From Globisporangium splendens (taxonomy: Eukaryota > Oomycota > Peronosporomycetes > Pythiales > Pythiaceae): a DNA stretch of 64,000 nucleotides. The translations under genes and the position numbers were made by a program. Shown here in pieces: positions 1 through 60,622 of the stretch (within the stretch, counting starts at the first letter, position 1; each line of letters begins with the position of its first letter). The notes under the pieces are model-generated. The model saw only the letters and a program-made list of their open reading frames with translations, was not told the DNA's origin and made no database searches. The stretch covers positions 1-64,000 of the forward strand of contig VFIW01000121.1 of assembly GCA_006386115.1 (NCBI GenBank). Reading direction: 5' to 3'.

Positions 1-414
1 CCAGGCACGCGCGCAGGACCGGCATGTGCCTAACGGCGCACGTGCCTAGCGTGCGGAGCGTCAAGGCATGTGTAACGTGTGCCTGACCTCGATTCCGAGG
101 TCAGGCTCTCATATTCATGTAGTACATATGCATACAGTTTAGTGTAATAGTCAGATAAAAATACAGTTGCAGGTGGGACACCTGGATAGGAAGAAAAATC
201 GTAATCAGTTGAAGAAAAGGATAGGCATGCATGCAGGGAGGCTTAGACGTAGCGCTAGCGAACTAAGTCCTCCATTCAATTCACTTTCCAATTTGCCATC
301 AAGTCGCCACCTCCTCCTCCGATCCACGCCAGCGTTCTCCGACTTTCGACCAATCAAGTTCCGACTTTCCGACTTTCGACCAATCAGCGTTCAGAAGACC
401 TCCGACTCGTTACA
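1..414 (+). repeat. 5' LTR of element A (first ~25 bp missing)
   Basis: It aligns with 5995-6408 over the same length, with scattered substitutions, and ends in ...TTACA. Near its start it contains a strong inverted repeat at 81-105 (arms GCCTGACCTCG and CGAGGTCAGGC, 4-nt loop), preceded by related GTGCCTGAC/CACGTGCC repeats. Confidence 0.9.
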
Positions 415-416
415 TC

Positions 417-425
417 TGGTAGCAC
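417..425 (+). other. Primer binding site of element A (TGGTAGCAC)
   Basis: TGGTAGCAC starts two bases after the LTR end. It fits the 3' end of an initiator-methionine-type tRNA (...GTGCTACCA), and the same nine bases with the same two-base gap occur in elements B and C. The tRNA assignment rests on general knowledge of LTR elements; no tRNA gene is present in the window for comparison. Confidence 0.75.
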
Positions 426-822
426 TTTGTGTCCGGGGGGGAGTGTGGCCGTTTCCAAGCGTTCAAGTCGCCGTCGTCGTCCAAGCCAGGCATCTCCGAG
501 GTTGTAATTCGGGCCGCTTTCTGAACGGGTGTTGCTTTTAGTGACATAAATCCCGGAATCATTGTCTGTGCGTTGACCCTTTGGTGTTCTGTGGCAGTAA
601 CTCCTGTAGTGTTGAGCCAGTCGTGCTTTTGTGCGTAATTCTGTGTTCTGGTCTACCTCGGTTTCTCTACCAGTGACACGGTGTCTCGGGTTCGCCCTAA
701 CTGTCTGTGTTCTTTAGGGTGTTATTCCGTGGTGTCATCGTCAGGCGTGCCTAGGTGAAGCCCTCATTAGAGGATCAAGACTGTGATTGTGAACTCCCAG
801 AGTTGATATCCTCCCCAACTCG

Positions 823-1173
823 ATGCCCAAGAAGCCGCGCGTCAAGCAGGTTCCGATTCAAGGCAGCTTTACGTACTTAGGCGTGCCAAAACCTGCAGAA
901 GCTGATAAAGCGCGTCAAGACCTCGTGAACTGTCTGACGAAGGCTTTCCGGATCTGTGAAGTGCTAGAGAAGCACGTGGATAAGTGTCCAGACAAGCTGA
1001 AGAGAAAGTGCGCAAAGAAGGCTCTAATCCAGACCGCTCAAGGAATCGTCGATGCGTCCGACGGGATAAGCGAGTGCTTTCGCCGCGTGCTGCGTGATCC
1101 ACCGGCATCGAGTACTGGTACTGGGAAGGCTAAGCTGCGTCCAGGTCAAGTTCCTCCGCCTAAGTTCGACTAA
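823..1173 (+). CDS. Small basic ORF in the element A leader, upstream of gag
   Basis: A 116-residue open frame lies in the untranslated leader between the primer binding site and gag, an unusual place for a gene in gypsy elements. The product is rich in Lys/Arg with several Cys (short basic start MPKKPRVKQ, a KLKRKCAKK cluster in the middle, Pro-rich tail PPPKFD). I recognise no domain. It ends about 160 bp before the gag ATG and is in a different frame from gag. It could be an extra ORF of the element, a captured host fragment or chance; the length without stops and the biased composition make chance less likely but do not exclude it. Confidence 0.4.
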   Translation: MPKKPRVKQVPIQGSFTYLGVPKPAEADKARQDLVNCLTKAFRICEVLEKHVDKCPDKLKRKCAKKALIQTAQGIVDASDGISECFRRVLRDPPASSTGTGKAKLRPGQVPPPKFD

Positions 1174-1334
1174 AAAAGAACAAAGAAATAAAAAATAAAA
1201 GTATAGCTTCGTATTATACTGGTTTTTAAGATCCCATAAGATAGAATCTCGACTCCCGTCCCTGCCTGCCAAGTCAAGTGAAACCGGTTACGTAAATTAC
1301 CGAGTGTGAATACCAAGTCAAGAAAATTACCAAT

Positions 1335-4300
1335 ATGAGCGAACCAACGAATGCCCAGTTGTTGCAGAGTATGCTGGCAGTGTTAAACCAGCAAGCAGAG
1401 ATGATCAAAGAATTCCAGCAAGTAAAACGGGAGTCAGAGATAAAATTAGAGGGATGTAAATTACCGGTGTATAGTGGAGCATTACAAGAATCGTTCCAAT
1501 TGTATAAAGAGCAAGTCAGAGACTATTTAAAGGCGAGGAACATTGACAGACAGGATGCTAGCCTACAGCCACGCCTTTTGGCGATGTTGGGAGGAACCCT
1601 GCGGCAGGGAGCTGCCCAGTGGTTCATTGTGAAGAAGACAGAGATTGAGACGGTTGACCAATTCTTCCTAGAACTAGGAAACGAATTTATTCCCGCTGAT
1701 CTACAAGAGCGTTTGCGTGACCAGTTGGGTGAGCTATCCCAGGGTCAGAGTCGTGGCCTCGACGACTACGTCAGTCGTTTTAGGCATGTTATCACACAAG
1801 TATAAGAGATGAGTGAGCTCGACAAGATCATGTATTTTGTGCGAGGATTAGCTCCAGCGATCCGAACAGAGGTGCGCTATCGCCGATGTTCTACGTTGTC
1901 GGAAGCCATCACTCTAGCGTTGGACTATGACCGTTCGCATCGTCGCTCTGCGGATGGAGGTCGGTCCCACTCAGAACCGAGGTACAGGCGTTTCGATAAT
2001 CGCCAATACCAACTGAATGGTGCAAGTCCAATGGAAGTGGACAATGTCCGAGTCCTGGGTCGCGACGAGTGTTTGCGTCAGCACCTCTGTTTCAATTGCA
2101 ATCGACCAGGACATCGAGCGTCAGAGTGTCGTGCACCGCGCCAGCAGCGACATGCGAATACGCCACAGACGACGCGCAATTCAAGATATCAGCGTCCGAC
2201 ACAGCGAGCTCGTCGATCAAGTCCAATGGTTGAGCACAACCTGGCGACAATGGATGAAGTTGATTATCCCATTGTGTTTGACAATGCGGAGCTAAACGCA
2301 GTGGAAATTACACGTAAAAGCAACTTGTTTGTTGTGGACGGTCGCGTAGATGGTAATGATGTGCGCATTTTGATTGACAGCGGTGCCTCGACCAACCTGA
2401 TCCAGCGTGGGTTGGTGAAGAAAGTGCTGAATACAGCAGTGATCGAAGCGCAAGGATTCGACGGCAGAAGGACCAAGAAACAAGTGAACGAGGTGGAAGC
2501 ATCGCGCCAAGTACAAGACAAGAAGTTTGAGGCAATGCAGTTTACGGAATGGGATCTACCCAACAGCCACGATGTCATCTTCGGTCAGCCATGGTTCGTC
2601 AAGCACAACTCGATCATTGATTGGAGAAAGCAGACGTTTGCATTGCCGGAAGACACCTCTGTGCACGAGCGCAGCGGTAGTGAAATCTGCTCCAAGATCA
2701 AGAATGCAGAGTACGAAGAGTTGTTCGTCGTAAAGGTGTCCGCAGTTAACGACATTTCTCCAGTCGTCCCGCCAGAGTTGAAACCTGTCATTGGTCGGTT
2801 CGCGGACTGTTTCCCGGAGTTACTTCCGGATGGCTTACCGCCAGAGCGTGCTGTGAACTTTGAGCTCCAGCCGAAGCCAGACGCAGTGCCAAGCTCGCGC
2901 CCGCCGTTATGTCTGTCCAAGACAGAGCAAGACGCGTTGGAAGAGTTCGTTCGCGACAACGTGAAGAAGGGATGGATTGAAGTATCGAACTCCCCATGGA
3001 TCTCCAATATCTTCGGTGTTCCAAAAAAGGATCCCGCGATGGGTACGGCTGTGAAGCGCGCTGAATGGCTGCGCAGTGGCAACACAAAGGTGCCGATACG
3101 TTGGGTCATCGACTATCGGTATGTCAACAGCCAGATGAAGATCCCCAAGATTCCTCTACCACACATAGAGGAACTCTTTGATCAGATGCTCGGTGCGACG
3201 GTATTCACGGTGATCGACCTCGCGCAAGGTTATCACCAGATGCGCGTGAAGCCTGACAGTCGTCCTTACACGGCTTTTAGGTCGCAAAAGGAAACGTACC
3301 AATGGTGTGTCGCTCCGATGGGATTAGCGGGTATGCCGGGAGTATAGTCTCGTCTTATGCGAGTACTCTTTGGTAAATTCAAGTTTGTTGTCGTGTATCT
3401 CGACGACATCTGTATCTTCTCCCGCTCGATGAAAGATCATGCGCAACATCTGGCGATGGTCTGTGAAGTCCTCCGTTATGAGAAGTTGTACGCTCGCCTG
3501 TCCAAGTGCGAGTTCGGCAAGTCCAGTGTCCGTTTCCTCGGTCACACAGTCACGGCTGAAGGGATCCAAGTCGACGCAAAGAAGACAACCGCGATCGAGA
3601 AGTATCCTACCCCGACGACGCAGAAGACATTGTTGAGTTTTCTGGGTCTTGCCGGATACTATCGTCGGTTTATTTGCGACTTTGCGCGGATTGCGTTGCC
3701 ATTGCATCGGCTGATTAAGAAGGATGCAAAGTGGATATGGTCATCCGAACATGATCACGCCTTTCGTGCCTTGAAGTTGGCACTGCAACAGGCTCCGACG
3801 TTGCGTTTACCTGACTTTGACCGTCGGTTCACGGTCACAACGGATGCCTCGGGTTACTGCATGGGTGGTGTCTTGTCTCAAAAGATCGACGGGTTTGACG
3901 CTCCCATTGCGTTCTATTCGAAGAAGTTCGGGCACTATGAGGAAGAGTGGCCTGCTCATGAGAAAGAGCTGCTCGCAATCAAGTTTGCGTTGTCAAAGTG
4001 GCGACACTACCTTCATGGTCGTCAGTTCGACGTGTTTACGGACAATTCGGCTTGCCGGTGGATGCTTCATCATCCGAAGGCGACTCCCAAGCTTGCGCGG
4101 ATGCTAACGTTCTTCTCCCAGTTTGGTTTTGTCCTGCACCACGTGAAAGGCAGTACCAATGTGGTGGCTGATGCCTTGTCTCGACCAGGACTGGAAGAAG
4201 ACAAGCCATCTGATGAATCCATCATGGTCTCGACTCCCGAAGTGCACGCTTGCGATGATGCGTGTCATATTCGGTCGCAGTCTATTTCTCGTCTTGTGGT

Positions 4301-6080
4301 ATCTGCGGCATTTCTACGCCACTTGCCTGATTCAGATTGCTCCGTCTTCCTCTCCGCTGTGGACTTTCGGGGGGAGAGACGCGCCGTGGCAGTACGGCAA
4401 GAGCAAGTCCACACCGTCGACACACAGTGGGCAAGTGTTCACTTGTCCGAAGCGACGAAGAAAGCCTTTCAAGCTGGCTATGCCCGCGACCCAAGTTTTG
4501 CCAAGGTATGGCAGAGTCGCGAAGAGAACGATAAGTTCGAGAAGCGAAATGGTCTTCTGTTTTTGCGAACGAAGCACCCGATATTGCGATTATGTGTCCC
4601 AAACTCGAACAAGTTGATCACTGATGTTATTCAAGAGTTCCATGACGCTCCAGTGGCTGCTCATCCAGGGGTTCGTCGAACACAGTTAAAGGCAGATCAA
4701 TGGTACTACTGGCCCACTATGGAAAAGGACATTCATGAGTATGTTGGCAGTTGTCAGACGTGTGCTCGATGGAAATCGAACAATCAGAAGAAGATCGGCT
4801 TGATGATGCCAATTCCGACACCTCAAGAGTGCTGGGATGTTGTGTCGATGGATTTCATCACAGGACTTCCAGTGTCCGAAAGTTTTGATGCCATCTTTGT
4901 CACGGTGGACAAGTTGTCGAAACGTCCGAAGTATCATCCAACACACTCGACAGCGGATGCCGAAGGTACCGCCAAGGTATTCTTCGAGGCAGTTGTTCGT
5001 CACCACGGTTTGCCGAAAGTCATCATCAGTGACCGCGATCCAAAGTTCACATCGGACTTTTGGAAGTCGCTGACAAAGCTCATGGGTATCAAGCTGAGCA
5101 TGACTACATCGCATCGCGCACAAGCAGACGGACAAACTGAACGTCAGAATCTCGTGTTGGAAGATGCGCTGCGATGCATGGTGTCATACCATGGAGACGA
5201 TTGGGTGAGCCACCTTGGCACGATCGAGTTTGCTCATGCAACTCTCGTTAATGAGTCGACCAAGTTCACACCGTTTGAGGTCGACACTGGAAGAAAGGTG
5301 CGCAACCTAATTGCCCAAGAGTTCGGCGTCGACGACGGAATCATCGAACAAGTAGATGTCGCTGAGTTTGCCAAAAACTTTGCGGAGAAGCGCCAACAAG
5401 TCATCAAGCTTGCCCAAGAGAACCTCAAGCAAGCTCAAGAGCGTCAGAAGAAATACTACGACAGGAAGCGTCGTGAAGTAGAATTTGAAGCTGGCGATCT
5501 CGTTATGTTGGATACGAAGAATCTACCACTGAAGACAGTCGCTCGAAGCACTTCACTCCAAAAGGCAAAGTTGGCAGCGAAGAAGGTTGGACCGTTCAAG
5601 ATCGAAACCATGGTGAACAAGAATGTGGCCCGTTTAGTATTGCCTCCAAACATGAAGCGTTTGCATCCAGCGTTCAATGTGGAGTTGCTTAGCCACTACG
5701 TTGAGAATCCAACCAAGTTTTACACAAGACCAATACCTAAAGCAGCCCCCGTCATCCTCGACGACAAGACTGGAGAAGCTCTGCACGTAGTGGAAGCCTT
5801 ACTTCGCCGAAAAACCCGCAACCGCCAGATGATGTGGTTGGTCAAGTGGCTCGGGTATCCTGCGCACGAGAGTACTTGGGAATACGAGAAGAACATCCGA
5901 CATGTTTCGCATTGGCATCGAATCCTTCAAGAGTTCGAAGACTCCCAACGCGAAGTCAAGTCTGGGGGATGTCACGTGTGCCTGACCTCGCACGCCAGGC
6001 ACGCGCGTAGGATCGGCATGTGCCTGACTTCGCACGTGCCTAGCGTGCGGAGCGTCGAGGCATGTGTAACGAGTGCCTGA
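1335..6080 (+). pseudogene. Gag-pol polyprotein of element A, interrupted by two nonsense codons
   Basis: One reading frame of about 1580 codons runs from the ATG at 1335 to the TGA/TAA-type end at 6080, interrupted only by TAA at 1803-1805 (middle of the Gag capsid region) and TAG at 3345-3347 (in RT, just before the palm motif). Domains in order: Gag; CCHC zinc knuckle (CFNCNRPGHRASEC, about 2088-2130); aspartic protease with DSGA (about 2376); RT with YLDD (about 3396); RNase H starting at TTDASGY (about 3837); integrase zinc region H-H-C-C (about 4640-4770); DDE core with MDF (about 4850), SDRD (about 5030) and QTERQ (about 5135); C-terminal chromodomain (about 5780-5935). The frame continues about 110 bases past the PPT into the 3' LTR. 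The TAG lies where related elements usually have Trp, so it looks like a G-to-A point mutation. No indels were seen, which implies recent decay. Confidence 0.93.
5955..5969 (+). other. Polypurine tract of element A
   Basis: The purine-rich run TCTGGGGGA sits directly before the TG that opens the 3' LTR at 5970. It is the expected primer for plus-strand DNA synthesis. It is translated as part of the C-terminal extension of pol. Confidence 0.7.
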
Positions 6081-6408
6081 CCTCGAGTCCGAGGTCAGAC
6101 ACTCGTCTGCATGTAAGTCAAATATATACAGTAAGAGGTAGCTAGTCAGATAAAAATACAGTTGCAGGCAGGACACCTGGATAGGAAGAAAAATCGTAAT
6201 CAGTTGAAGAAAAGGATAGGCATGCATGCAGGGAGGCTTAGACGTAGCGCTAGCGAACTAAGTCCTCCATTCAATTCACTTTCCAATTTGCCATCAAGTC
6301 GCCACCTCCTCCTCCGATCCACGCCAGCGTTCTCCGACTTTCGACCAATCAAGTTCCGAATTTCCGACTTTCGACCAATCAGCGTCCAGAAGACCCCAAA
6401 CCTTTACA
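5970..6408 (+). repeat. 3' LTR of element A
   Basis: 439 bp, from TGTCACG to CTTTACA. From 5995 onward it matches the leftmost 414 bp of the window. The hairpin seen in the 5' LTR is present but imperfect (arm GTCAGAC instead of GTCAGGC). Flanking sequence begins with GATCC at 6409. Confidence 0.92.
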
Positions 6409-17720: not shown

Positions 17721-19464
17721 ATGAGAATGCAGCCGAAGACGTCTTCTGCAGCATGTATGTCGCGGCGATTGCATCCCATCGCCATCGTGGCAGCGGTGCT
17801 GCTCGTTTTAGGGTTCTGTGTGCTCTTTTTCGAAGCCGCTTCGTTGGATTACGCACAGGCGGTTGTACAGAGTGCGGAAGAGATGCGCAAGGAAAGACTA
17901 GGCGCATTTCGACAACATCTCGGTATGCTTCTCGACGCCAACGATGAGTCCCTCGAGCCATGGATGCGTGAAAGCAGCGACACGGAGGTCCCCTCGGACG
18001 AGCGTCTTCATTTGAGTCTACTTCAGGCAGCGTGCCTGGAAAACACAGCAAGCATCGTGCCGTGGACGTACGGCAAACCCGGTCCCGATCAAGAAAACGA
18101 CGAGGCGAATCGAAAGACGCTTATTTCAAAAGATGACCCAGAACTGCTCGAAAAGCTCCGCCAATGTCCTGATATCGACATCTTCATTCCCACGGGACTC
18201 CGCGGTCATGGATACTGCGAAGACGCGATTGTGTATGCGAAATGTAAGTGCAAAAAGATACTGTGGTGTCTGCTTGCTGAAGTTTTGGACTAATATTTTG
18301 TACTGTTGTGTGTGTTTATGATAAACAGTCTTGGAATCACGATTGCTGCCACACTGGGCACTGGAGGTCCAGCTTTTCGATGCCAATCTCAATCGCACAG
18401 TCACGTACCACGAATTGTGTCCCAAAACGCCGATTCTGCTCTTCAACCACTACTGGGATGGCGTCCCAGACGCTCCGGATTTCCCGAAAGACAAACCCGT
18501 GTACCTCATGCCGAACGTCGAAATGTATGAGCTGAACGAGAAGTACCTCTGGAGAATCGATGTCGCTTTGTGCAAGACGCGTACGTGCTACAAGCGCTTG
18601 GTCCAATGGTACGCGCAAGAGGGCAACCCGCGCAACACACAAGTGTTTTACACACGCCACACGTCATCTGACGTCGCGAACTATGCACATCGCAAACTGG
18701 GCGACGACGCAATCGCGAAAAAGGATTTTGAGAACGTGCGCTTCATCCACACCGTCGGTGGCAGGTACGTCAGCATCGATACGATTGGCAAGCCGTTTAC
18801 TTCTCTCTGTATTCTGACGTCTTTGTGTCCCTGCTTACACTGCGATAGCTCACACAAAGGCACTCGAGAAGTGATCGAGTGCTGGCTATCGCGTCCGGAT
18901 TTTCCTCGTCTCGACCTTTTCATCGCCGAAGGCTCGTACAAGAGCACCTACGAAGCGGTATACGGGAAGCGAATCCGTGCGAGCCAAATCAACTTGACGA
19001 GCCATCGTATCGACCCAATTCCGTTTGGCAAAACCATCGCTGAGGCGTCGTTTTTTCTGTGTCCGAGTCGCATGGAAGGCTACGGTCACTACATTAACCA
19101 GGCGCGCGCATCTGGTGGCGTGATCGTAACCACGAATGGATTCCCGATGAACGAACTTATTGAAGCCCCTGCAATGGGGGTGTACGTTGACACGAACCGC
19201 CAAAAAGACTCGAATATGTTTCTAGGTGGTAACTACCGAGGCGAACACGGCCTCCGCAATGTCGAAGGCATGCTCGCTGTAAGTTCTGGCGACAGCGTGT
19301 GCCGCGCAGTCGAGCAAGTGCTGTTCAACACAAGCGTCTGGCAACGCGAAGCAATGGCGGCTGCTGCACAGCGACAATACCATATCGACACGAGGTTCTT
19401 TGCACGCGAAATGCGTAAGCTACGGAAGTTTATCAACGAGGTGAGGAAGAAGTTGGCACACTGA
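17721..19464 (+). CDS. Glycosyltransferase GT-1 (GT-B fold type, membrane anchored), 3 exons
   Basis: Exons 17721-18243, 18329-18764 and 18849-19464, separated by two GT-AG introns (18244-18328, 85 bp; 18765-18848, 84 bp), give 524 residues without interruption. The splice positions are supported by the paralogue GT-2, which has the same two phases and an identical exon 2 length (436 nt). The N-terminus has a short basic stretch and one hydrophobic anchor (IAIVAAVLLVLGFCVLFF), so a type II Golgi/ER protein is likely. The C-terminal half resembles the donor-binding domain of GT4-like enzymes: KTIAEASFFLCPSRMEGYGHYINQ... then ASGGVIVTTNGFPMNELI. The usual E-x7-E motif reads E-x7-Q here. Substrate unknown. 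Alternative in-frame starts lie at 17727 and 17757. Confidence 0.85.
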
Positions 19465-21483: not shown

Positions 21484-21877
21484 TGTAACGGGAATGCCCG
21501 TTACACGGCGTACACGTGTGTTGAGGAAGCGCAGGTGAGAGGAAGGACACAGCGGCAACGCTGCGTCCAAAAGAAGGAAGGGAGCTTTGCGCGATAACGT
21601 GCAAAAAGAGAAGTGAATTGAAATCTTAAGGTTTGAAATGCAAATCTGATGGGTTGTTCCTACGGCGTCTCTGATTGGTAGATAGTCGGGTGTCCAATCT
21701 GACTATCATCCAATGAGATTAAACTTCAATGTAATGTTCTTATTGGCTAAAAATGCAAGTGGCTACATACAGTGTTGATGGGTTAACGGGTGTGTTTGTA
21801 GAGAGTGGTAGAACCCGTGTGGGCATGACCCACACTCTTTGTACCCAAGAACCCATGTAATGGGAAGCCCCATTACC
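21484..21877 (-). repeat. 3' LTR of element B
   Basis: About 394 bp, near-identical to 29216-29609. Each LTR end is itself a foldback: 21484-21505 has arms TGTAACGGG and CCCGTTACA. The inner end reads CATTACC where the other LTR has CATTACA, so the terminal TG of this LTR is mutated. Confidence 0.93.
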
Positions 21878-24244: not shown

Positions 24245-27200
24245 GTCGCCCGACGTAGAACGTCGGGTGTAGACGCATGGTCGGAGGAAGCTCCAACTTG
24301 TATGCGTCCCCAATCCTTTCAAGTACCTTGAAAGGGCCAATGTATCTTGGCAGCAACTTGTTGCTGTCACTGCTCACCACTCTGTTAGGTAGGTTAGCAG
24401 TCGATAACAAAACCAATGAATTCCTTTTAAATTCGTTCGTGTTTTTGCGGCCACTCTTATCCGCTTGTTCCTTCTGACTATCCACTGCGTCGGCGATTGA
24501 ATCGCGGACAAAGCGGATGACAGCATGTCGCTGCAACACTGCTGTAGCGATGTCTTTGTCGGCGATCGCCGCATGAGCAGTTACCTGCTCACGTTGATGC
24601 GGGGTCTCCGAATGTTCCGAAGCAACAGCTGCTGCTTCGCGGACTCCTCCCCCACTTAAAGGAGATGTCACCGGTGGAGAGGACATCCCACCGAGGATGG
24701 AGGGAAGACGTGGGTGCCTGAGGGCGTTCACGTAGAACGGTGTGTGCCCAGTTGAGGCATGCACAGAGTTGTTGATTGCAAACTCTGCGAGGGGGAGACA
24801 TTTACTCCATGAGTGAATGAATGCGCATAGCTGCGCAGAATATCCTCGAGCGTGCGATTCACACGCTCTGTCTGACCATCTGTCTGCGGATGGTCAGCTG
24901 TCGACATCTTGAGCTGAGTGCCCAAGAGTCGGAACAACTCTTGCCAGAAGGCAGCTGTGAACCGTGGATCTCGGTCCGACACGATTTCAGTGGGCATTCC
25001 GTGTAACCTAAACACAGAATCCAGGAATATCTGCGCCGTCTGCTTTGCGGTGACGCTAGCAGGGACAGCGCTGAGATGGACCATCTTGCTGAAGCGATCC
25101 ACGATGACGAGAATCCCAGTCTTCTTGCTGGAGTCAGCAGGAAGACCGAAGATGAAATTCATCGAGACTGACTTCCAACAATCCGCTGGGACTGGCAGAG
25201 ATCGCAGCGGTGCGTTGGTCACCGGTGCTGGCTTTACGCGCTGGCAAACCTCGCATGCGCGTACGTATTTGCGGACCCACTTGTATTGGTGGGACCAATA
25301 GAAGTCGCGGGAAAGCGTGAGATACGTTTTCTCGCGTCCTGGATGGCCGCGGAAAGGCGCATCGTGGTACTCGAAGAGCACACGATTGCGAAGGTCACTG
25401 TCGTTTGGAACGACAGCGCGTGGCTCGTCGCTGTCATCTATACGGTAGTAGAGAACATCGTTGCGCATCTCGTAACGATGTAGACGAGCGCGTTGAGCCG
25501 GGTCCAACGCCTTGAGCGACTTATCAGACGGGTCTGACAAGTGGGCAACAAGTCGACAGGTGTCACTGTCTGTCGCATACGCTCTTTTGATATCGTCAAG
25601 GATCGACGATATCGGTGTGCTTTCTCGTGTGGTTGTCATCACACGGTCTTCCTTTGAGTCGTTCGCTTTCGGCTCAAAGTCTGGGCGACGTGATAATGCA
25701 TCCGCGATCACGTTGAACCGTCCGGGTTTGTACTCGACGTCAAACTCGTACTCCGCAAAGAAAGAAAGCCATCGGGCCATTCTTTGCGACAGATGTGGCG
25801 ACTCCACTGCGGTGCGCAGCGAAGCGTGGTCAGTGTAAACGGTGAACCGTTTACTTCCGAGCAAATACACTCTGAACTTCGCAAGAGCGTACTTCATGGC
25901 AAGCAACTCCTTGTCATGAACCGGATAATTGCGCTCCGCTGGCTTCAGCTGACGCGACTGATAGCAGATCACGCGTTCTCGATCTGCATCGTCGCGCTGC
26001 ATGAGCGCGCATCCGATTGCAAAGTCGGATGCATCACAGACCACATAGAATGGTCGCTCGTGATCGGCGATCGCGAGAACCGGAGCCTCCATGAGACTGC
26101 TTTTCACCCTGACGAATGCATCTTGACATTCGTCGGACCACTTCCAGTCGACGTCTTTCTTCAGTAATGATGAAAGAGGTCGGATGATACCCGCATAGTT
26201 CTGCGAGTACTTATGGAGATACGTCGCAAGACCGAGGAACTTGCAAAGATCCTTTTGGCTTGTTGGGACGGGCCAATCGTTGATCGCCTTGATCTTTTCG
26301 GGATCAGGACGCACTCCGTTCTTGCCGACAAAGCAACCGAGAACGGGGATCTCATCAACACCAAACATACACTTTTGTGTGTTGGCGTACAGCTTGTACT
26401 TCCGCATCAAGTCCAATAGCTGTCGGAGGTGCTCTTTGTGCACTTCCACATCGGATGCAGCATCCGATGCACGACTGTGTATGAACACGTCGTCAAAATA
26501 GCTTGGTGCGAAGTCTCGCACTGGACGTAATAGTTGCGTGACGCATCTATTGAATGTGGCGGGAGCATTTGTTAGCCCCTGTGGCATTACGAGCCACTCC
26601 CACAGCATCCCGCTCGGGGTGCTGACTGCTGTGAAAGGGATATCCTTTTCACGCATCAAGATTTGATAGAACCCATCTCTCGAATCGATCGTACTAAAGA
26701 TAGTACTACCTTGCATGCTGTCAATGATGACATCTTTGCGAGGTATCGGCGTTTGCGCCGGGATTGTTGCCGCATTCAACTTGTTGAACGCATGCACGAT
26801 CCTCCAACCTCCTGTGGCCATTTTCACACAGAAGGTGGGGCTGCAGTGCGGAAAATTCGACTCGCGCACTTGGCCCGCTTTACGGCGAGCTTCAAAGAAC
26901 TCGTCGATCACCTTGACTTGCTCTCGAGGCAGTGGCCATTGCCTCGTGATGCAGTACTTTGTTCCCGGCTTGAGATCAATCTCATGCCGAACTCCTTTGT
27001 CTGTCGGAAGACGACTGGGAACTTCTTCTGGGAATACGTCTTCGTACTCCTTCAATAGTCCGTAGAATGGACTGTTCTTCAGGGATTCCCATCCCTGAGC
27101 CTGAAATCGTTCCTTCTTCGTTGGCTCGTCGAGCACATCAGTGTCCATCACTGATGACGACGCAAGGAAACATTCACCGAGTGGGTGCCTCTGCACTGCC

Positions 27201-28118
27201 GACTCGGCATTGCTCGATTCCTGAGGAGCAATGTAACATATCTGCTCGAGGGTGCCTCGATGCAGTTCTTTCATGAACCGTTTCTGGCTCATGACGGGTA
27301 GCGTCACCACTTCCGAAGCGTCCTTCGGAGGGTCTTCTAACGCCACCTCATGAATATGAGATCCATCCTCATCAGTGACCAAGACACTGATGGCTTCGCA
27401 CGAGGAGCCTTGATCAGAGGTCTCCATTGGCGGTACCTTTCCTTCGTCATCGCTCTTCTGTACAGAGCGATGGACTTCCGAAGTCTGTCCTTTAGACTTT
27501 CGGGTGGCTTCTCCATCGGGCATCGTGCTAAGGGGGCCATCGCACACCCTTGCATCATGTTCGTTAACCGACAGCGCGTTGCGCGCCGACGGGCGGCTAG
27601 CCTTGTTCCGCTTCATAGCGGGGTAACTGATCGATTGTCGATTCCAATCGATGATCGGCTGATACTTCTTCAGCCATGGCATTCCAAGGATGACATCGAA
27701 CTTGTCATCTAAATCCAGCCAAATGAAGTCTCCTTCCATTTGGTGTCCATCATGCGTGACACGAAGCCGTGTCACGTGTTTCTCCGTCGTGACGGTGGCA
27801 CCTGTTGCCAACCGCACGGTGATCTTCGACTCGGAGGAACGTGATTCCTCCGAAATTACTCTCGCTAGTGCACGGGCGACATGCGATCGAACAAAGCTGT
27901 TTGACGCACCCGTGTCTAGCAGTGCCCGCAGAGGGGTCGTAAATCCCTCTACGGTTATCTCAAGTTGGATGAGCCGATCTCTCGACTCATCCGCAGTCGT
28001 GGTAGTCCAGCAGCGCGTGCCATGCACGCTGGGGGCTTGCGTCTCGTGCACCACGATCACACCAGACGCATATTCGCCAGTAGAGCGCCCCGCGTCTACT
28101 GGCTGTTGACGTTTTTTG
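23712..28118 (-). pseudogene. Pol of element B (PR-RT-RNase H-IN-chromodomain), -1 frame relative to gag
   Basis: Pol is entered by -1 frameshifting at 28117-28111. The first residues after the slip are KKRQQPVDAG. Domains: aspartic protease (LLDTGASNSF, about 27910), RT with SYFDDVF (about 26490-26505), RNase H (VCDASDFAIG, about 26030), integrase zinc region (about 25230-25370), DDE core (SDRDPRF; QTERVN), and a chromodomain at the C-terminus (RWIVEKIL...YRVRWLGYPPDRDTWEP, about 23830-23950). Frame changes near 24810 inside the integrase. The first catalytic aspartate of the integrase is replaced (MNF at 25157-25162, against MDF in elements A and C). The linker between integrase and chromodomain is low-complexity and is overlapped by the antisense frame. 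Confidence 0.92.
28076..28117 (-). promoter_or_regulatory. -1 ribosomal frameshift signal between gag and pol of element B
   Basis: Slippery heptamer A AAA AAC (28117-28111) in the gag register, a 7-nt spacer, then a hairpin at 28103-28076: arms GCCAGTAGA and TCTACTGGC (9 bp), one bulged C, an upper stem GCG/CGC and a GGG loop. The gag stop TAG (28098-28096) lies within the 5' arm, four codons after the AAC. Pol is open in exactly the -1 frame. Element C has the same arrangement with paired substitutions. Confidence 0.85.
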
Positions 28119-29165
28119 ATTCTTCGCGCGTTGGACGCGAAGAAGTCGTCCGATGTGTGTCTCGGACGCGGGGAGCGGGCTGCGCCGCTCGGCACTCGTA
28201 TTGAAAGTGCCCCAGTTTCTGGCAGCGGTGGCACCGCAGCTTGCGCTTGTCGACGGGTCTCTTCGGAGCCGCCGAAGCTTGAACCAACGAGAGATCCATT
28301 GGTTCGGATCCACTGCAACGTGGAGGAGGTCTCGCGTGCCGGAAGTGCGCGGCACGGTAGGGGAACGCGTGAAGCCGTGCTTGCTTCGCGCTGAAGTCTT
28401 CTTGAAGCGCCAGAGCGATTGCTTGCTCTAGCGTTTCCGGGTATTCCGGGAACAGGTAGGTCTTGACGGGACCATCCGTCAAGCCTTTCATGAACGTGGC
28501 GACTTGCGTCCCCATGTCGACCGGCTCTGACACAATACTTGATACCAAGTGTCGAGCATGTTGGATATACGCGTGAAGGTCGCGTCTATCCTGTCGGATC
28601 TCAAGGAATTCCGTGCGAGTACGGAATTTCGACTTTGGTGGCTCAAAAGCGGCTCGAATGTCACTTTTGAATTCCGCAAGTGTGCGGAAGCAGTGGTGGT
28701 CGGCCATTCGTCGGCTGAATGCCCAGCTCTTCGCTATCCCAGCGAGCTTGGACATCGCGAAATCGACCTGCTGCTCTGGGTCATGGATTTGCCCAGAGCG
28801 AATGGCGGCGTCGATTTCAACGAACCATCGGAGGAGAGGCTCCTTGTCTCCTCCGCCATACTTCGCGACATCAAGCATTACATCTTTCTGTCGTGGGGGT
28901 TGTACCTGCGCAGTAACTGCGCGGGTTGCTTCTCTTCCACGCTCCTCTGCCTCCTTCTGCAGGAACCCAATCGCCGTGAGGCGATGCTGCTCCGGCGGGA
29001 AGGTGGCGAGGATGGCGGAGATTGCCTTTTCGCCAACGACCTTCCCAGTCGTATCAGGGCGCTCCACTCGAGGTCACTCAAGTGGAGGCAACCATCCCGC
29101 GTGATTGTCGGACTCGCGGTTGACGCGGGATCGATCCCCAACATTGTTTCTTCGTCAGCATTCAT
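28096..29165 (-). pseudogene. Gag of element B, one frameshift near its N-terminus
   Basis: The frame starts at the ATG at 29165 (MNADEETMLGID) and carries the conserved LSDLEW segment; it shifts by one base near 29050 into the frame that runs to TAG at 28098-28096. The capsid-like part has LLRWFVEIDAAI and FAMSKLAG, and the C-terminal CCHC knuckle reads CHRCQKLGHFQYEC (about 28220-28180). The same blocks occur in element C. The product packages element RNA; the frameshift should abolish it. Confidence 0.85.
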
Positions 29166-29215: not shown

Positions 29216-29609
29216 TGTAGTGGGATAGCCCGTTACACGGCGTACACGTGTGTTGAGGAAGCGCAGGTGAGAGGAAGGACACAGCGGCGACGCTGCGTCC
29301 AAAAGAAGGAAGGGAGCTTTGCGCGATAACGTGCAAAAAGAGAAGTGAATTGAAATCTTAAGGTTTGAAATGCAAATCTGATGGGTTGTTCCTACGGCGT
29401 CTCTGATTGGTAGATAGTCGGGTGTCCAATCTGACTATCATCCAATGAGATTAAACTTCAATGTAATGTTCTTATTGGCTAAAAATGCAAGTGGCTACAT
29501 ACAGTGTTGATGGGTTAACGGGTGTGTTTGTAGAGAGTGGTAGAACCCGTGTGGGCATGACCCACACTCTTTGTACCCAAGAACCCATGTAATGGGAAGC
29601 CCCATTACA
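29216..29609 (-). repeat. 5' LTR of element B
   Basis: 394 bp. The outer 22 bp (29588-29609) form a perfect foldback with arms TGTAATGGG/CCCATTACA and a 4-bp loop; the inner 22 bp (29216-29237) form an imperfect one. The promoter elements were not identified. Confidence 0.93.
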
Positions 29610-31016: not shown

Positions 31017-31124
31017 TTCGAGCGGTCCTTCCAACGACCCAGTGAAGTGAAGAGGTTTGACGACGCGGCTTTAAGCACGTCGCGCATTCCTGTCCAAGAC
31101 CCTGCGAGCATCCTTGTGTGGAAC

Positions 31125-32174
31125 ATGGATGCTACAGGAACCCCACTCGGTCCAGCAGTACCGGAAACTGTCGAGTTGACTATTGAGGGTTTCCCTCATC
31201 TGTCTTCTCATGAGTGGATGGCGCTTGAGCGCATGCGAGATGTCATCGGAGAGGCTGCTGTGGTCAGTCTACTTCGATCGGCATCTTCGGAGGACCAGAA
31301 GAGCGCGGTGGTCAGCTTCATGCACCACGAGATCATGTCCTCCCGGAAGCAGGTCACAACCCCTGTTTCCTCAATCAGGACGGTGCCACTGAAGCTTGAC
31401 GTCTCTCCGTATCGCGGCGGAGAGAACGAGCCACTCTCACGATGGTTCGTCGAGTTGGATGCAGCCATCGCTGCAAGACAACTGCGAGACCCTTCGCAGC
31501 AAGTGTTGTTCGCGATGTCCAACCTTGCGGGTCGTGCGAAGAGCTGGGCGTATGGCAAGCGTTTAGCCGATCTAAACTGCTTCCCCAGCTACTACCACTT
31601 CAAGACCGAACTCAAGAAGGCGTTTGAACCTCCACAGAGTGAGTTCCGTGCGCGCGTCGAGTTCCTCAAGCTTCGTCAAGGCCGTTTCGACCTTCACTCG
31701 TATGCACAACGTGCTCGTTACTTGGTATCGAGCATCGTTGACGAGCCGATTGACGTTCCGACGCAAGTCGTGACGTTCATGACGGGTCTGAACGATGGTC
31801 CGATTCGGAACCAACTGTTCCGCGAGTATCCCAAGACGCTGGACGAAGCCATCGAACGTGCGATGCAAGAAGAGTTCAGCATGAAGCAAGCGAAGTTCCA
31901 TGGGTTTGCGTCAAGACCAATGCGGCAATCAAATGTTGCGCATGACGGTCCCGAGCCCATGGACATCTCGTACATTTCCACGCCTGGAAATGAGCGTCCT
32001 CGCAACGATGGGAAGTGTTTCCGTTGCGGGAAGCCGGGTCATATTGCTCGGGACTGCAAAGTGTCTCTGCCGGGTCGGCAAACGACACAAGGTGCTCGTT
32101 CGAACAACCACGATCGTTCTTACGGTCGTCGGTTCGATCGGTCACCTGGGCCAAAAAACGGGAATGGACAGTAG
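31125..32174 (+). CDS. Gag of element C (intact)
   Basis: 349 residues from the first ATG (MDATGTPLGPAVPE) to TAG at 32172-32174. The reading frame is open further upstream but without an ATG. The capsid-like region includes PLSRWFVELDAAI and LFAMSNLAGRAKSWAYG, then RYLVSSIVDEPIDVPTQV. The C-terminal zinc knuckle CFRCGKPGHIARDC (about 32020-32060) would bind element RNA. The last codons contain the frameshift heptamer. Gag proteins of elements B and C align over most of their length, so they are sister families; this copy is the only unbroken gag in the window. Confidence 0.92.
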   Translation: MDATGTPLGPAVPETVELTIEGFPHLSSHEWMALERMRDVIGEAAVVSLLRSASSEDQKSAVVSFMHHEIMSSRKQVTTPVSSIRTVPLKLDVSPYRGGENEPLSRWFVELDAAIAARQLRDPSQQVLFAMSNLAGRAKSWAYGKRLADLNCFPSYYHFKTELKKAFEPPQSEFRARVEFLKLRQGRFDLHSYAQRARYLVSSIVDEPIDVPTQVVTFMTGLNDGPIRNQLFREYPKTLDEAIERAMQEEFSMKQAKFHGFASRPMRQSNVAHDGPEPMDISYISTPGNERPRNDGKCFRCGKPGHIARDCKVSLPGRQTTQGARSNNHDRSYGRRFDRSPGPKNGNGQ

Positions 32175-32192
32175 GGGCGGAGCCTCCTACTG
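32153..32192 (+). promoter_or_regulatory. -1 ribosomal frameshift signal between gag and pol of element C
   Basis: A AAA AAC at 32153-32159 in the gag register (codons CCA AAA AAC), a 9-nt spacer, then a hairpin at 32169-32192: arms CAGTAGG and CCTACTG (7 bp), upper stem GGC/GCC, loop GGA, one bulged T. The gag TAG at 32172-32174 lies in the 5' arm, four codons after the AAC, as in element B. Pol continues in the -1 frame as KKREWTVGAEPP. Confidence 0.87.
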
Positions 32193-35100
32193 GCCCGGAA
32201 AAGAGGACTGTGGATGTTGTGGAGACACAGGACTCTGGCCCCCATGTGCATCAAGCACATGCAGTTTCCACTGTGAGCGAGAAGAGTGTCAGTCAAACGT
32301 CAAGTTTGATCGTTCACAAAGTTCATGTAGACGGTATTGCAACGCCTCTACGAGCTTTGGTTGACACCGGTGCGTCGAACAACTTTGTTCGAAATGAAGT
32401 GATCATCAGGCATGGTATCTTCGTGCCCGATGCGAATGAAGAGAAGGCGATGATTGTCCGGTCGGCAAATGGGTCAACTGTGAAGATGCTGAAGCGCGTG
32501 GTGCGCTTGGCAATCAAGTGTGAAGATTTCCGAGGTGAAGACGAGTTTATTTTACTCGACCTCGATGACAAGTTTGACATCACCCTGGGAATGCCGTGGT
32601 TGAAGCGTTACCAACCTAGCATTGACTGGATGAATATGAAGATCTCCGTTGGCAAGTCACGCGATGTTGACTTGTGCTGCACAACAACGGATGAAGTGGT
32701 ATGGGTGTACACATCTGTGGAAGAGATCCCAGATGGCCCTTGTGATATTGCGGTGTGCGATGGCCCCCATGTTCACAAGCGGTACCCATTTTGAAGACGA
32801 CGAACGGAGGTGGAGCAGTCAGGCGCCAGAAAAAGACTGTCTCCTTTGCCATCGACGACGAGAAGGCTCGCGATGGCGTTGACAAGAGTGAATGGAAGAG
32901 GAACAGACACCCTTCCCAAGACAAGAAGACCAGCAAGAGAAGTTTTTCGCCAAGAGTTTTGAGTTCCCCTGATCAAGGTACAAGTGGCGATGACGAAGGG
33001 AGTGTCCAAGCACAAGACATTCCAAGCGAGTTTGTGAATATCGCGGTTTACAATGAAGAAGGTGACGTGGATGTAATCCGTCACGTGAAGATTGAAAATC
33101 CTCCAGGTTCAGTCGAAGAGTTGATTTCCTTGCCATCAATGAGCAAGAAGACACTAGAGCGCAGCCTAGCGAGAGGCGATATTGCGCAGGTGTGTGTGAT
33201 CGTCGAAATGGTCGACGAAGGCTTCGTCAACACAGCATCAAGTGCGGATGCAGATGTGTTGGACGAAAAGGCACGGAAGGAAAGGCTCGAGGAGCAGTCG
33301 TGGGACTCCCTCAAGAAGAACCCCGTGTATGCGCTTGCCAGGGAATATGAAGACATCTTCCCTGACAAGGTGCCGGACGAATTGCCATTCGACAGAGGCA
33401 TTCCTCATGAGATTGATGTACTTCCTGGCACGAAGTACTGCATCACAAGACAGTGGCCGTTGCCAAAGGAACAAGTCGAGGCGATCGACGAGTTCTTTGC
33501 ACAACGTGCTAAGGCTGGTCATGTGCGGGAGAGCAAGTCTCCGCATTGCAGCCCCACTTTCTGTGTGAAGAAGGCAACTGGAGGTTGGCGCATTGTTCAC
33601 GCTTTCAACAAGCTGAACGACGCGACAATTCCAGCCCAGACTCCGGTTCCACGCAAGGACATGATCCTTGATGGAATGGTTGGCAGCACCGTCTTTAGTG
33701 CTATCGATCTGAAAGATGGGTTCTATCAGATTCGAATGCGCGAAGACGATGTCCCACTAACCGCAGTGAGTACCCCGAGTGGTATGCTGTGGGAATGGTT
33801 AGTGATGCCACAGAGACTGAAGAATGCTCCTGCGACCTTCAATCGAATGGTCACGAACGTTCTTCGTCCTCTGCGAACATTCGCACCAAGTTACTTTGAC
33901 GATATTTTCGTTCATAGTAAGGCCACGAATGGGAAGTCTGATGTCGATGTTCATCTCGATCATCTTCGTCAAGTTTTCCAGGTCATGCGTGAGAACAAAC
34001 TCTACGCAAACTTGAAGAAGTGCATGTTCTTCACCCCCGAGATCCCTGTTCTCGGTTGTTTTGTGGGCAAGAGCGGTGTTCGAGTCGATCCGGAGAAGGT
34101 CAAAGCTATTGACGATTGGCCAGTGCCTCAGAACGTCAAACAGCTACGACAATGGTTGGGTCTAGCCAACTACTTGCACAAGTACACGCGCAATTATGCA
34201 GCGTTGGTGCAACCCCTCACACAGCTCTTGAAGAAAGACGTTGAGTGGAAATGGTCGAGAGACCATCAGACGGCGTTCGGAGAAGTCAAGAGGAGTCTTC
34301 GAGAAGCTCCCGTGTTGGCTCTGCCAAACCACGACAAGCCGTTCCACGTCGTCTGTGATGCGAGCGACTATGCCATCGGTTGCGCATTAATGCAACACGG
34401 TGATGAGGGTCATGAGCGAGTTGTGTCGTATCAGTCGCGACAACTCCGATCCGCAGAGCGGAACTGCCCAGTTCGCGAGAAGGAACTTCTGGCGATGAAG
34501 TATTCTTTGGTCAAGTTCCGTGTGTATCTGCTTGGCGAGGAGCGCTTTGCTATCTACACTGATCACGCATCTCTGCGTACGGCAGTGAAGACTCCTCATT
34601 TGTCGCAAAGAATGGCGAGATGGTTCTCCTTCTTTGCAGAGTACAACTTTGTTGTACACTACAAGCCAGGCAAGACGAACATCTTAGCCGATGCGCTGTC
34701 AAGACGTCCGGATTACGATCCGAAGACCAAGAGTGAAGACACGGACGGAGCGTGTCGACTCTGTGAAGATGTTCAAGCGATCGCGGTGCAAGCAACGACT
34801 ACAGTGCGAGAAGAGATTGTCGAAGGGTACAAGTCTGACGAAACATGTCAGGACTTGTTGAAGTACTTCAAGGACCCTTCGGACAAAGCACTGCAAGGTC
34901 TTCCGTCGCGCACAAGATCGCGAGTTCACCGCTTCCGAGTACACAATGGGTTGTTGTACTATGCGGTCGAACAAGGGGATACAGCAAGGGTTGTTGTTCC
35001 CAACGACGAAGGTCTGCGTCATCGACTCTTGTATGAGTACCATGACAGTCCTTCGGGTGGCCATCTCGGACGTGAGAAAACGTTTCTCAGTCTTTCCCGG

Positions 35101-47905: not shown

Positions 47906-49707
47906 TCACCACTGGCCAAGTTCATTGAGCTGCTGTGAATCCTGTTGCGGCTGCTGTCGAAGGTGGTTCCTTGTTGTTTTGGCCGCGGAACGCTGACGCG
48001 CCGCGAACTGCCGCAATTTGAGCATCTCGAGGGCGAAGAACTTGGTGTCCATGTGGTATTGCCGTCGGACATTCGCGGCCATGGCTTCACGTGACCACAC
48101 GGTCGTATTCAATATAACTTGTTCGATGGCGGCGCACACACCAGCCTTATTGATCTGCGCCGAAAGTCCCTGCACCACGTCGGGCTTGATACCGTGCTCG
48201 CCAGTATACGCGCCAGCGAGCAGCATGTGCCCGTCTCGACCGATTTTGGTGGGTTTCACGAGTACGCCAAAGTCACGAGACGGAATCAGTTCGTTCATCG
48301 GCGCGACGTCCGTCGTCACGACCACGCCGCCCGAGGCCCGCGCCTGGTTGATGTAGTGGCCGTAGCCCTCCATGACGCTTGGACAGAGGAAGAAAGATGC
48401 CTCAGCGATCGCTTTCCCAAACGTTATTGGGTCCATACGATGATTCGTCAAGTTGATATTGCTGCTTGCGCGAATGCGCGCATCCTGTTTGGCCGAGAAC
48501 ATTCCTTTGTACGTGTGCGCGTTGATAAAGAGATCCAATGGCGGGAAATCCGGTCGCGACAACCAGCACTGGACGACCTGGCGGGTGCCTTTCTGGACGC
48601 TATAACAAGAGAACAATGGGATACATGAGAGTAGAGATAACCCAACGAATGGGTACTAGATCAGTGTCTTACCTCGTACCAGCCGTGTGAATGAATTTCA
48701 CATTTCGGTAGTCTTTCGGCCGAATCTCATTAGCGCCAAGCACATGGCGCGCGAGATTCGCGACGTCTGACGTCGTGTGCTTGGTGTAAATCACTTTGGA
48801 CTCGCGCGGGTTGCCCTCTTGTGCGTACCATTTCGTGACGCGATCGTAGCACGTCTGCGTCTTGCACAGCACAACATCCACACGCCAGTAGTGCTCTGCT
48901 GTGAGCTCGTACATCTCGACGTTCGGCATGAGGTACACGGGCTTTTGCTTTGGCCACGCGGGGGAGTCCGTCAGGCCGTCCCAGTAGTGGTTGAAGAAGA
49001 TCACAGGCGTCTGCGGACACAGCTCAAAGTACGTGACGTTCTTGCTGGTCGCGGCGTCAAAGAACGTCGCGTCAAAGACCCATCTCGGCAACATCCGCGT
49101 CTTCAGAACTGCCAAAAAATCAAGAGGCAATCAAACCACAGTGAAAAATAACGCGATAACATACAAAGCACTAGGTAGATACTGAAGACAAGGACTCACA
49201 TTTCACGTAGACGCTCGCGTCTTCGCAGTAGCCGTGGCCGCGTGAGCCCGTGGGAAGAAACACGTCGATGTCGGGGCACTCGCGCAACTTTTCAAGCGCC
49301 TGCGGGTCGTTTTCATTGATCACGAGTCGTCGGGTCTGCGCCTCGGCATCCTCTTCCTCGTTCTCTACCTCCAGACCGACTTCGTATGGGATCACGCTGG
49401 TATTGTGCGCCAGACACGCAGCCTGCAACACACTCAGATGCAGCAGTTCGCTCGCAGGCACGACGTCCACGACGCTCTTGTTCTCGGGTGCGTGGATCCA
49501 CGTGTCGCGGTCGCTGAGGCGCTGCGTCTGCGCGCCGCCGGACAGCGCCGTCGCCACCCCGGAGAAGGCGCCGCTGCTCCATGCATGCAGCGAGTTGGCC
49601 TCCAGTAGCAGCGCCACGCTGCCGAGCGCGAACAGCGCGCCGACGACGCGCATGAGCGTCGTGCGCTTCGGCGCAGAGGAGGAAGCAGACGACGCGGCAA
49701 AGCTCAT
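47906..49707 (-). CDS. Glycosyltransferase GT-2 (paralogue of GT-1), 3 exons
   Basis: Exons 49707-49200, 49108-48673 and 48599-47906 with GT-AG introns of 91 and 73 bp; 545 residues, uninterrupted. The first ATG (MSFAASSASS) is preferred over upstream non-ATG codons. N-terminal anchor VVGALFALGSVALLLEA. It shares with GT-1 the blocks LEKLRECPDIDVFLPTGSRG, ELCPQTPVIFFNHYWDG, PVYLMPNVEMYEL, KTQTCYDRV, EGNPRESKVIYTKHTTSDVA and PSVMEGYGHYINQARASGG. Exon 2 is 436 nt in both genes. The E-x7-E position again reads E-x7-Q, so this is a family trait and not damage. The C-terminal tail is Gln/Arg-rich. The repeated gene count in this window suggests local expansion of the family. Confidence 0.87.
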
Positions 49708-52421: not shown

Positions 52422-54170
52422 ATGAAGCGAAAGTCTGCTGCTGTGAGTGGGTCGCGGCGAATGCACCCCATCGTCTTCATGGCGGTACTGCTGCTCGCAC
52501 TCAAATGTTTCGCGCTAGTCTTCGAAACTGCTTCGTTAAGTAACTCGCGCATCGGACTCCAACTTTCCGCAAATCCGGTCCAGACGGCAGCCAAGCATGA
52601 AGCAAACTTGGACGCATTACAAGAGCATCTCACCTTCGGAGACAACGCCGAGGATTTCGAGCCATGGATGCACGAGAGCAACGACAGTGAGGTCCCCTCG
52701 GACGACCGCATGCACTTGATTTTGCTTCAAACAGCGTGCGTGGCGCACGCCGACACTATCGTGCCGTGGACGTATGGCAAACCTGGACCCGATCAGGAAA
52801 TGACGACAAGAACCTGAAGCTGCTGCTCACGCCAGACCATCCGAACCTGCTTGACGAACTTCGTCAATGTCCCGATGTCGATATTTTCGTTCCTTCAGGA
52901 GTCCGAGGCTTTGGGTACTGCGGAGACGCTGTCGCGTACGCGAAATGTACGTGCGCTCTGTTTACTGCACCGCTCCATTTCTGTGATTGTTTAACACTGT
53001 TGTTGCATGCAGTTCTGAAGTCGCGATTGTTGCTGTATTGGGCACTCGAGATCCCGCTTTTCGACGCAGAGCTCGGTCGCACGGTCACATACCATGAACT
53101 GTATCCAAAGACACCGATCGTGCTTTCAACCACTACTGGGATGGCATCCCAGACGCTCCGGACTTCCCGAAAGATAAACCCGTGTACCTCATGCCGAACG
53201 TCGGGATGTACGAGTTGAACGAGAGCCACTTTTGGAACGTCGATGTCGCGCTGTGCAAGACGCGTACGTGCTACGAACGCCTGGTCCAATAGTACGCGCA
53301 AGAGGGCAACCCGCGCAACACGCAAGTGTTTTACACACGCCACACGTCATCTGACGTCGCGAACTATGCGCGTCGCAAACTGGGCGGTGATGCGATTGCG
53401 AAAAAGGGTTTTGAGAACGTGCGCTTCATTCACACTGTCGGTGGCAGGTACGTGGGCTACTCTATGCGTCCTCTGTGACCGTTGGACGGGTTTCTGACGC
53501 CTTTGCATACGTTGTGTACCTCGCTTTCTGTGATAGCGCGCAGAAAGGCACAAATGAAGTCATCGAGTGCTGGTTGTCGCGTCCGGATTTCCCCCAGCTT
53601 GACCTGCTCGCTTCGGACGAAGCCTACATCAACATGTTTGAGAAACCGTATGGCGACCGGATCCCAGGGAGCAAAATCAACTTGACCGAGCATTGCCTCC
53701 CCGCAATTCCGTTCGGCAAAGTCATCGCGGAGGCGTCGTTCTTCCTGTGTCCAAGTCGCATGGAGGGCTACGGCCACTATATCAACCAGGCGCGCGCGTT
53801 CGGTGGCGTGATCGCGACCTCGAATAGTTCCCCGATGAACGAGCTCATCGACGCGCCTGCCATGGGAGTGTACGTCGACACTGAGCGTGCGAAAGATCCC
53901 AACATGTTTCTAGGTGGTGGCTACAGGGGTGAGCACGGACTTCGCGATTCAGAAGGGATGCACTCGGTTGTGACTGCGGACGGCGTCTGTCGCGCTGTCG
54001 AGCACATACTGCTCCACACGAACGCAGCGCAGCGACAGTACCGCCTGGACACCAAGTTCTTTGCGCGCGCGATGCTCAAGCTACGGCAATTCGCTACGGC
54101 AGTGAGACAGAACCCACCACTCGCAGTCAATTCTCCGCACTTACGAGCTGAACTTAAATCACCAGTCTAG
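52422..54170 (+). pseudogene. Glycosyltransferase pseudogene GT-4
   Basis: Exon-like segments 52422-52946, 53013-53447 and 53537-54170 with the family's two introns. The start is good (MKRKSAAVSGSRRMHP, then an anchor IVFMAVLLLALKCFALVF). Lesions: a 1-nt loss near 52798 (after PGPDQE), a 1-nt loss near 53125 (PIVLSTTT against PILLFNHY in GT-1; exon 2 is 435 nt instead of 436) and TAG near 53290 (LVQ*YAQEG). The C-terminal exon is intact apart from a 9-residue deletion (LLHTNAAQRQY against LFNTSVWQREAMAAAAQRQY in GT-1). The last third could still make MNELIDAPAMGVYVD... but the full protein cannot be produced. Confidence 0.87.
52660..53798 (+). repeat. Right arm of the 1139-bp inverted repeat (GT-4)
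   Basis: Partner of 50156-51294. The arm starts at AGCCATGGATG and ends in the GCGCGCG run at 53791-53798. Confidence 0.92.
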
Positions 54171-59790: not shown

Positions 59791-60622
59791 AGCATGTTGA
59801 ATGTTGAACCCCTTGAAGAAATCCAACGAAATCGTACAATCATTGACGATACGAGCTGGAATTTGTCTTGGATCCTTCGATTGCAGGGGACCTTGAAATA
59901 CTCTCAACCAATGGCAATGTACTTAGTAGATTGCGTGGTTTGGTAGAAGTTATGAGTGTGGTCTGGTGTCACAGGTGCTGTCGCCAATCTCGATGGGAAG
60001 TCGAGTCAGCGAGGTCGCACTGGAGCTGAAGGTAGAAGCCCTTGGAGATGCCACAATAGAAGTCCGACTGCAATTGGGGTCAGAAATAGTAATCCGAGTT
60101 CCCCTGTGTTAATTGACAAGCATTTTGGTTGTGTGATATGTAGGTAACTAAAAGCAGTAGATTGGACAGTCTCACAAAAAGCAACGTTGTCGAACCAAGA
60201 CAACCATTTTCATACTCCGGTCGAAACCAGTTCAGTTGAATATTCTTGTTTTTTGCGAGGAACGTTGTATCCGTGTGTCCCCACGTCAGCCTTGTGGCGG
60301 CACCAGGCACTTTTGGCAGCACAAGTCTACTTCGCCCTTTTATTTGCATTTGCTCAGATGACCGAAAAGGGTTCATCAATTATTTGTTTGCACAGCAAAT
60401 TGAGGTCATGCAATTTTGTTCGATCTCAGCAGTCGCACTCATACATGACATAGCCATTACAACGCCAACTTCAGCGTTACTGATACACATTGGTTGGCTT
60501 GGTCGAGGAGAATCGGTAAACGGAGATTTCCAATCAGAAAAACAGCACTTCAACATTCAAAACTTGTCCTTATAATCTCCCTAATGACGATAGGGAAAAG
60601 TTTCACGAGCGCACATATGCAT
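59791..60622. other. Convergent 3' intergenic region between the two ABC genes
   Basis: 832 bp, no gene or repeat recognised; holds both 3' untranslated regions. Confidence 0.5.

Follow-up and report, generated by a model that had tools for sequence, protein, structure and literature searches.

At the junction of gag and pol, Ty3/gypsy retrotransposons of the plant-pathogenic oomycete Globisporangium splendens carry a compact module: the slippery heptamer A AAA AAC, a gag stop codon four codons further on, and a predicted hairpin that contains this stop. We consider it highly probable that the module acts as a signal for programmed −1 ribosomal frameshifting and fixes the ratio of Gag to Gag-Pol. 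This reading rests on the phase of the heptamer, the frame of pol, its distance from the stop, the potential to form a hairpin, recurrence across families and the exchange of one heptamer for another. It was proposed in an initial annotation of a 64,000-nucleotide stretch of contig VFIW01000121.1 (hereafter the window), and it has held up: the module occurs in several families with two canonical heptamers at one distance, and the gag C-termini of relatives fit.

Element B, on the minus strand of the window, lies between a 5′ LTR at 29216–29608 and a 393-bp 3′ LTR at 21484–21876, which is 98.7% identical to its partner. Its gag (28096–29067, minus strand) encodes 323 amino acids with a capsid domain (PF03732) and a CCHC zinc knuckle (PF13917; 23.7 bits, just under the Pfam cut-off of 27). 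The pol ORF (24728–28318, minus strand) overlaps gag, is open in the −1 frame relative to it and encodes protease, reverse transcriptase, RNase H and integrase in that order, which together with the LTRs and the CCHC gag identifies B as a member of Ty3/gypsy (Metaviridae). The slip site (28111–28117, minus strand) is an X XXY YYZ heptamer in the zero-frame phase, read A AAA AAC by gag and AAA AAA C by pol. ORF coordinates and gag phase confirm the claim that four codons separate it from the gag TAG (28096–28098, minus strand). The hairpin claimed for the junction is recovered by the predicted fold at 28103–28076 (minus strand), a bulged structure of 12 bp with the three-base loop GGG, which begins 7 nt past the slip site and includes the TAG in its 5′ arm.

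How would such a module act? A ribosome translating gag would meet A AAA AAC with a stable bulged hairpin about 4–9 nt ahead. During the pause the tRNAs for Lys and Asn would slip back by one base and pair anew with AAA AAA; the shifted share of ribosomes, now in the −1 frame, would get past the gag TAG and yield Gag-Pol, and unshifted ribosomes would terminate four codons later and yield Gag. Pausing, slippage, efficiency and a role in particle assembly are what we infer from the arrangement of the module. The distance from the slip site to the predicted structure is 7 nt in B, 9 nt to the core stem in C, 8 nt in family D and 4 nt in family E, and so fits a spacing of about 5–9 nt, with E at 4 nt. 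With the protease in the −1 frame, readthrough of the gag stop could be rejected for the main families. The heptamer alone is unremarkable, AAAAAAC occurring 9 times in the window against 8.7 expected; an in-phase heptamer of any of 14 types is found in the last 60 nt of 9 of 532 open frames of at least 60 codons, B and C being among the frames.

Element C repeats the arrangement on the plus strand. Its gag occupies 31047–32174, its protease frame (32015–32794) is −1 relative to gag, and the module at 32153–32192 consists of AAAAAAC, nine letters and then a hairpin from CAGTAG to CTACTG. B and C were described as having different LTRs, and this is so: those of C are 651 bp long (93.4% identical), against 393 bp in B. 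Gag identity is 48% between B and C, 48% between B and D and 32% between B and E. The contrast drawn between the two lower stems, closed by A-T in B and by G-C in C, is also correct. That drawn between the upper stems, GCG/CGC against GGC/GCC, fails, as it mixes two registers; in the register of C, B reads CGC/GCG, and a single upper pair differs, C-G versus G-C. Two registers are open to the upper stem of B, one with a 5′ and one with a 3′ bulge; its lowest-energy fold has the 3′ bulge, as in C, and family E, judged by its fold, pairs in the other register. The upper stem thus keeps its pairing partly by sliding. A further gypsy-like element, A (window positions 1–6395), has flanking repeats that are 93% identical. 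A single ORF of this element contains the zinc knuckle together with a match to protease (23.8 bits, cut-off 24.3), so the module is not used there.

Nine related rows from about six families were aligned for covariation. Lower-stem cells pair in 98.6% of cases in register, versus 25–50% when the arms are slid. Three pairs (16-42, 23-35 and 24-32) vary on both sides with pairing; changes on both sides turn the C-G at the base of the stem into T-A in E and the closing A-T into G-C. The first upper pair is C-G, G-C or A-T and is broken in three of the nine rows. Five core pairs are invariant, and the stem core is nearly constant. Had these differences been selected for RNA structure, as initially argued? 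Selection on the hairpin is part of the favoured reading, on divided evidence. The three doubly changed pairs speak for it, as does a covariation score of 0.25 against a shuffled mean of 0.14, reached in none of 500 shuffles; pair counts and types do no better than shuffling: 141 of 500 shuffles have at least the 2 doubly changed pairs counted in that comparison, and all 500 have at least the 3 further pair types (shuffled mean 4.4). Judged from this alignment, covariation of the stem appears real but modest, and gives support, not proof. A permutation of the 3′ arms among five families (2 of 120) was set aside, two registers having been mixed in it.

Might the complementarity merely reflect conserved Pol residues, encoded by Val and Thr codons, in related copies? 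The constant core does cover GTA and ACT, and null models of the fold bear on the question. The hairpin of B has a predicted energy of −19.1 kcal/mol in a 48-nt piece (−20.2 in a 53-nt piece that includes a small second hairpin). The 48-nt value is equalled in 2 of 500 dinucleotide shuffles and 9 of 2000 synonymous draws. The corresponding counts are 31 and 117 for C, 2 and 20 for C2, 5 and 136 for D, 6 and 82 for F, 36 and 136 for B2, and 0 and 0 for E; the inverted-loop form of E gives 0 and 7, and the frame used in its null meets a stop. In C, D, B2 and F the predicted fold is only slightly better than what synonymous draws give, 4–7% of which reach the observed energy, as conservation of Pol alone would allow. 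The counts for E and B run against that explanation, as does the C-G to T-A change at the base of the stem in E, which alters two Pol residues and leaves the pairing in place; we judge it very unlikely. In a scan of the window against Rfam, no family reached its gathering score; a match to the DnaX frameshift element scored 14.5 bits against a threshold of 35 and counts as no evidence.

The module recurs throughout the 53.3-Mb G. splendens assembly (for the genome paper, see PMC7163027). Its AAAAAAC form has 163 + 168 = 331 matches and the G GGA AAC form, with the same spacing, 43 + 61 = 104; the reversed-pattern control gave 0 for each. The bare 24-nt hairpin core, CAGTAG-12-CTACTG, which is palindromic, occurs at 463 sites (control 3), and 320 of them (158 + 162) have AAAAAAC exactly 9 nt upstream. 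Pfam searches independent of the module, for protease and for gag, supplied 60 loci, the best 30 of 150 scored matches each, in which the module was judged by a loose hairpin pattern. These loci are not independent samples, since the protease loci are nearly all of family D and the gag loci mostly of family E. AAAAAAC with the hairpin was present in all 30 protease loci, and GGGAAAC with the hairpin in 21 of the 30 gag loci. In five further gag loci (L033, L034, L041, L042 and L045) the hairpin is present and the heptamer is altered. The four without a hairpin comprise one that lacks the junction (L031), two with truncated gags (L054 and L057) and one that is short and near a contig end (L040). 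The family D junction was found in 28 of 29 scored protease loci; the exception, L086, stops one codon earlier, and L050 and L056, without the TAG, also depart from the four-codon distance. Among seven short stretches picked for variety, six contain the module and the seventh covers the zinc knuckle instead. Loss of the heptamer or the pairing in elements that keep gag and pol had been named as evidence against the module. In the five altered loci the heptamer has indeed changed while the remainder of the module is intact, and at most two of them share one change.

All 29 scorable loci of the protease sample of 30 have the protease in the −1 frame, as do 23 of 24 family E loci. Gag could also be joined to Pol if a short intron spanning the junction were spliced out, as deposited gene models imply, and several G. 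splendens models do place gag and pol domains in one protein. However, model P0001 lacks the zinc knuckle, the models of relatives join at differing places by eye, and splicing explains neither the heptamer nor the hairpin; we find it exceedingly improbable. Because P0001 lacks the zinc knuckle, the deposited G. splendens models that run as single gag-pol proteins across the frameshift site are probably artefacts. A frameshift signal would explain the odd gag-pol joins in deposited gene models at this junction.

Family E carries G GGA AAC, and its 19-nt distance to the TAG is the same as in the AAAAAAC families. The hairpin loop is inverted in 7 of the 100 family E rows listed (of 104 matches), and in 5 of these 7 the two arms repeat each other perfectly, the outcome expected of fold-back copying. 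In three of four inverted-loop copies (L032, L047, L055 and L058) the protease is in the −1 frame; in L058 it is in the gag frame, behind the TAG, and in L032 the −1 reading hits a stop right after the hairpin. Inverted loops and re-copied arms suggest that a nucleic acid folds into this hairpin while the element replicates. Is the inverted repeat then a DNA element, or one for packaging or reverse transcription, with the neighbouring heptamer incidental? Its palindromic nature would agree with this, as would the copies in which one arm was seemingly re-copied from the other, which needs fold-back in replication. Yet the heptamer is specific to one strand, keeps to the gag phase and, in most copies, to a single distance, and is exchanged for another canonical heptamer, and gag C-termini of relatives from other sources agree with a frameshift site. 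We therefore regard an incidental heptamer as highly improbable. The family E protease has Asp-Cys-Gly (DCGASQN) at its active site rather than the usual Asp-Thr/Ser-Gly in 24 of 24 scored loci among L032–L060; DCGASNN is present in some Phytophthora, Peronospora and other relatives.

Does the frameshift module extend to other genomes? The best 120 of 320 gag matches, read as proteins and not as codons, were split by name, by eye, into 38 from Phytophthora, 11 from G. splendens, one each from G. ultimum and Pythium oligandrum, and 69 others. Of these 69, 64 end in KN (58), GN (4) or LN (2) plus exactly four residues; the exceptions are P0135, P0152, P0172, P0197 and P0233. The G. ultimum gag ends in KNVSNQ and that of P. 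oligandrum in KNDKAQ. One Pol relative, P0027, starts upstream of the site and reads KKRQRPVGAQQPTG, like the Pol-frame reading in G. splendens. Phytophthora differs: the KNxxxQ ending is absent from 37 of the 38 listed gags (P0158–P0237), the sole carrier being P0208 with KNARNQ. A final Q that is not part of the motif is seen in 27 of the 38, mostly the Q found just before S-KN in P0208; in three, KN itself forms the end, and seven have other endings, so that most stop before or at the expected start of the heptamer. These endings count against the generality of the module. Decay of the copies, the gene models or another kind of recoding could account for them, and the junction may work differently in the Phytophthora branch. 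A third-frame reading of models P0213 and P0271, made from protein, suggests that the 5′ arm of the hairpin persists there.

A broader scheme would have oomycete gypsy elements share one recoding module in which the hairpin outlasts the mode of recoding. Heptamers would be freely exchanged (AAAAAAC, GGGAAAC and probably UUUAAAC), in one copy a hairpin-templated loop inversion would have brought the protease, which follows the TAG, into the gag frame, and Phytophthora would have kept the hairpin with a gag that ends at the heptamer or ahead of it, so that recoding at this site would be of another kind. We think this scheme unlikely. Matches to the AAAAAAC module in viral_contigs (8 stretches) and genome_contigs (17 stretches) were rejected as chance, since a zinc knuckle or protease motif lies near none of the 25. 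Scanned with a protein profile, viral_contigs gave matches in 69 stretches, and no relative was among these.

The window holds other repeated features. ORFs at 55903–59790 (plus strand) and 60623–64000 (minus strand) are ABC-transporter-like by eye, from their signature, and convergent, tail-to-tail. Their antisense ORFs at 59038–59730 and 60494–61375 have translations that are alike over a long stretch, and the pair may reflect recent duplication or gene conversion. ORFs at 18331–19464, 47906–48616 and 53475–54170 look related by eye and possibly glycosyltransferase-like, and the copies of a repeat of 300 nt, at 18442 and 53125, share 90% identity.

Among the matches listed by a full-text literature search, whose scope leaves subscription journals and Repbase reports outside, no title or abstract start mentions a frameshift site in an oomycete retrotransposon. 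The view that such a module is undescribed for oomycete gypsy elements is supported as far as those titles and abstract starts extend. One match mentions frameshift mutations, and not programmed shifting, in a Phytophthora Copia-like element (PMC7082073).

For oomycetes, which include major plant pathogens, the module provides a well-supported candidate endogenous signal for −1 frameshifting. Its presence across distant families with interchangeable heptamers offers a comparison set for the combinations of heptamer and hairpin that stramenopile ribosomes accept. A AAA AAC with a downstream structure is also a retroviral gag-pro site, as in MMTV. Both have the heptamer and a downstream stimulator, which is a pseudoknot in MMTV gag-pro and, by prediction, a bulged hairpin with a loop of three bases here. 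Toti-like dsRNA viruses of oomycetes are reported to have predicted frameshifts at a slippery overlap (PMC8878296); the host group is the same, but these are dsRNA viruses and not retrotransposons. There is also a likeness to animal LTR retrotransposons, 28 of 51 of which had pol in the −1 frame in a 2003 survey described in a review, many with a classical heptamer (PMC5009743), so this kind of signal is already known. The elements described here differ in their oomycete host, and may also differ in having the gag stop inside the hairpin and, in several families, four codons between heptamer and stop.
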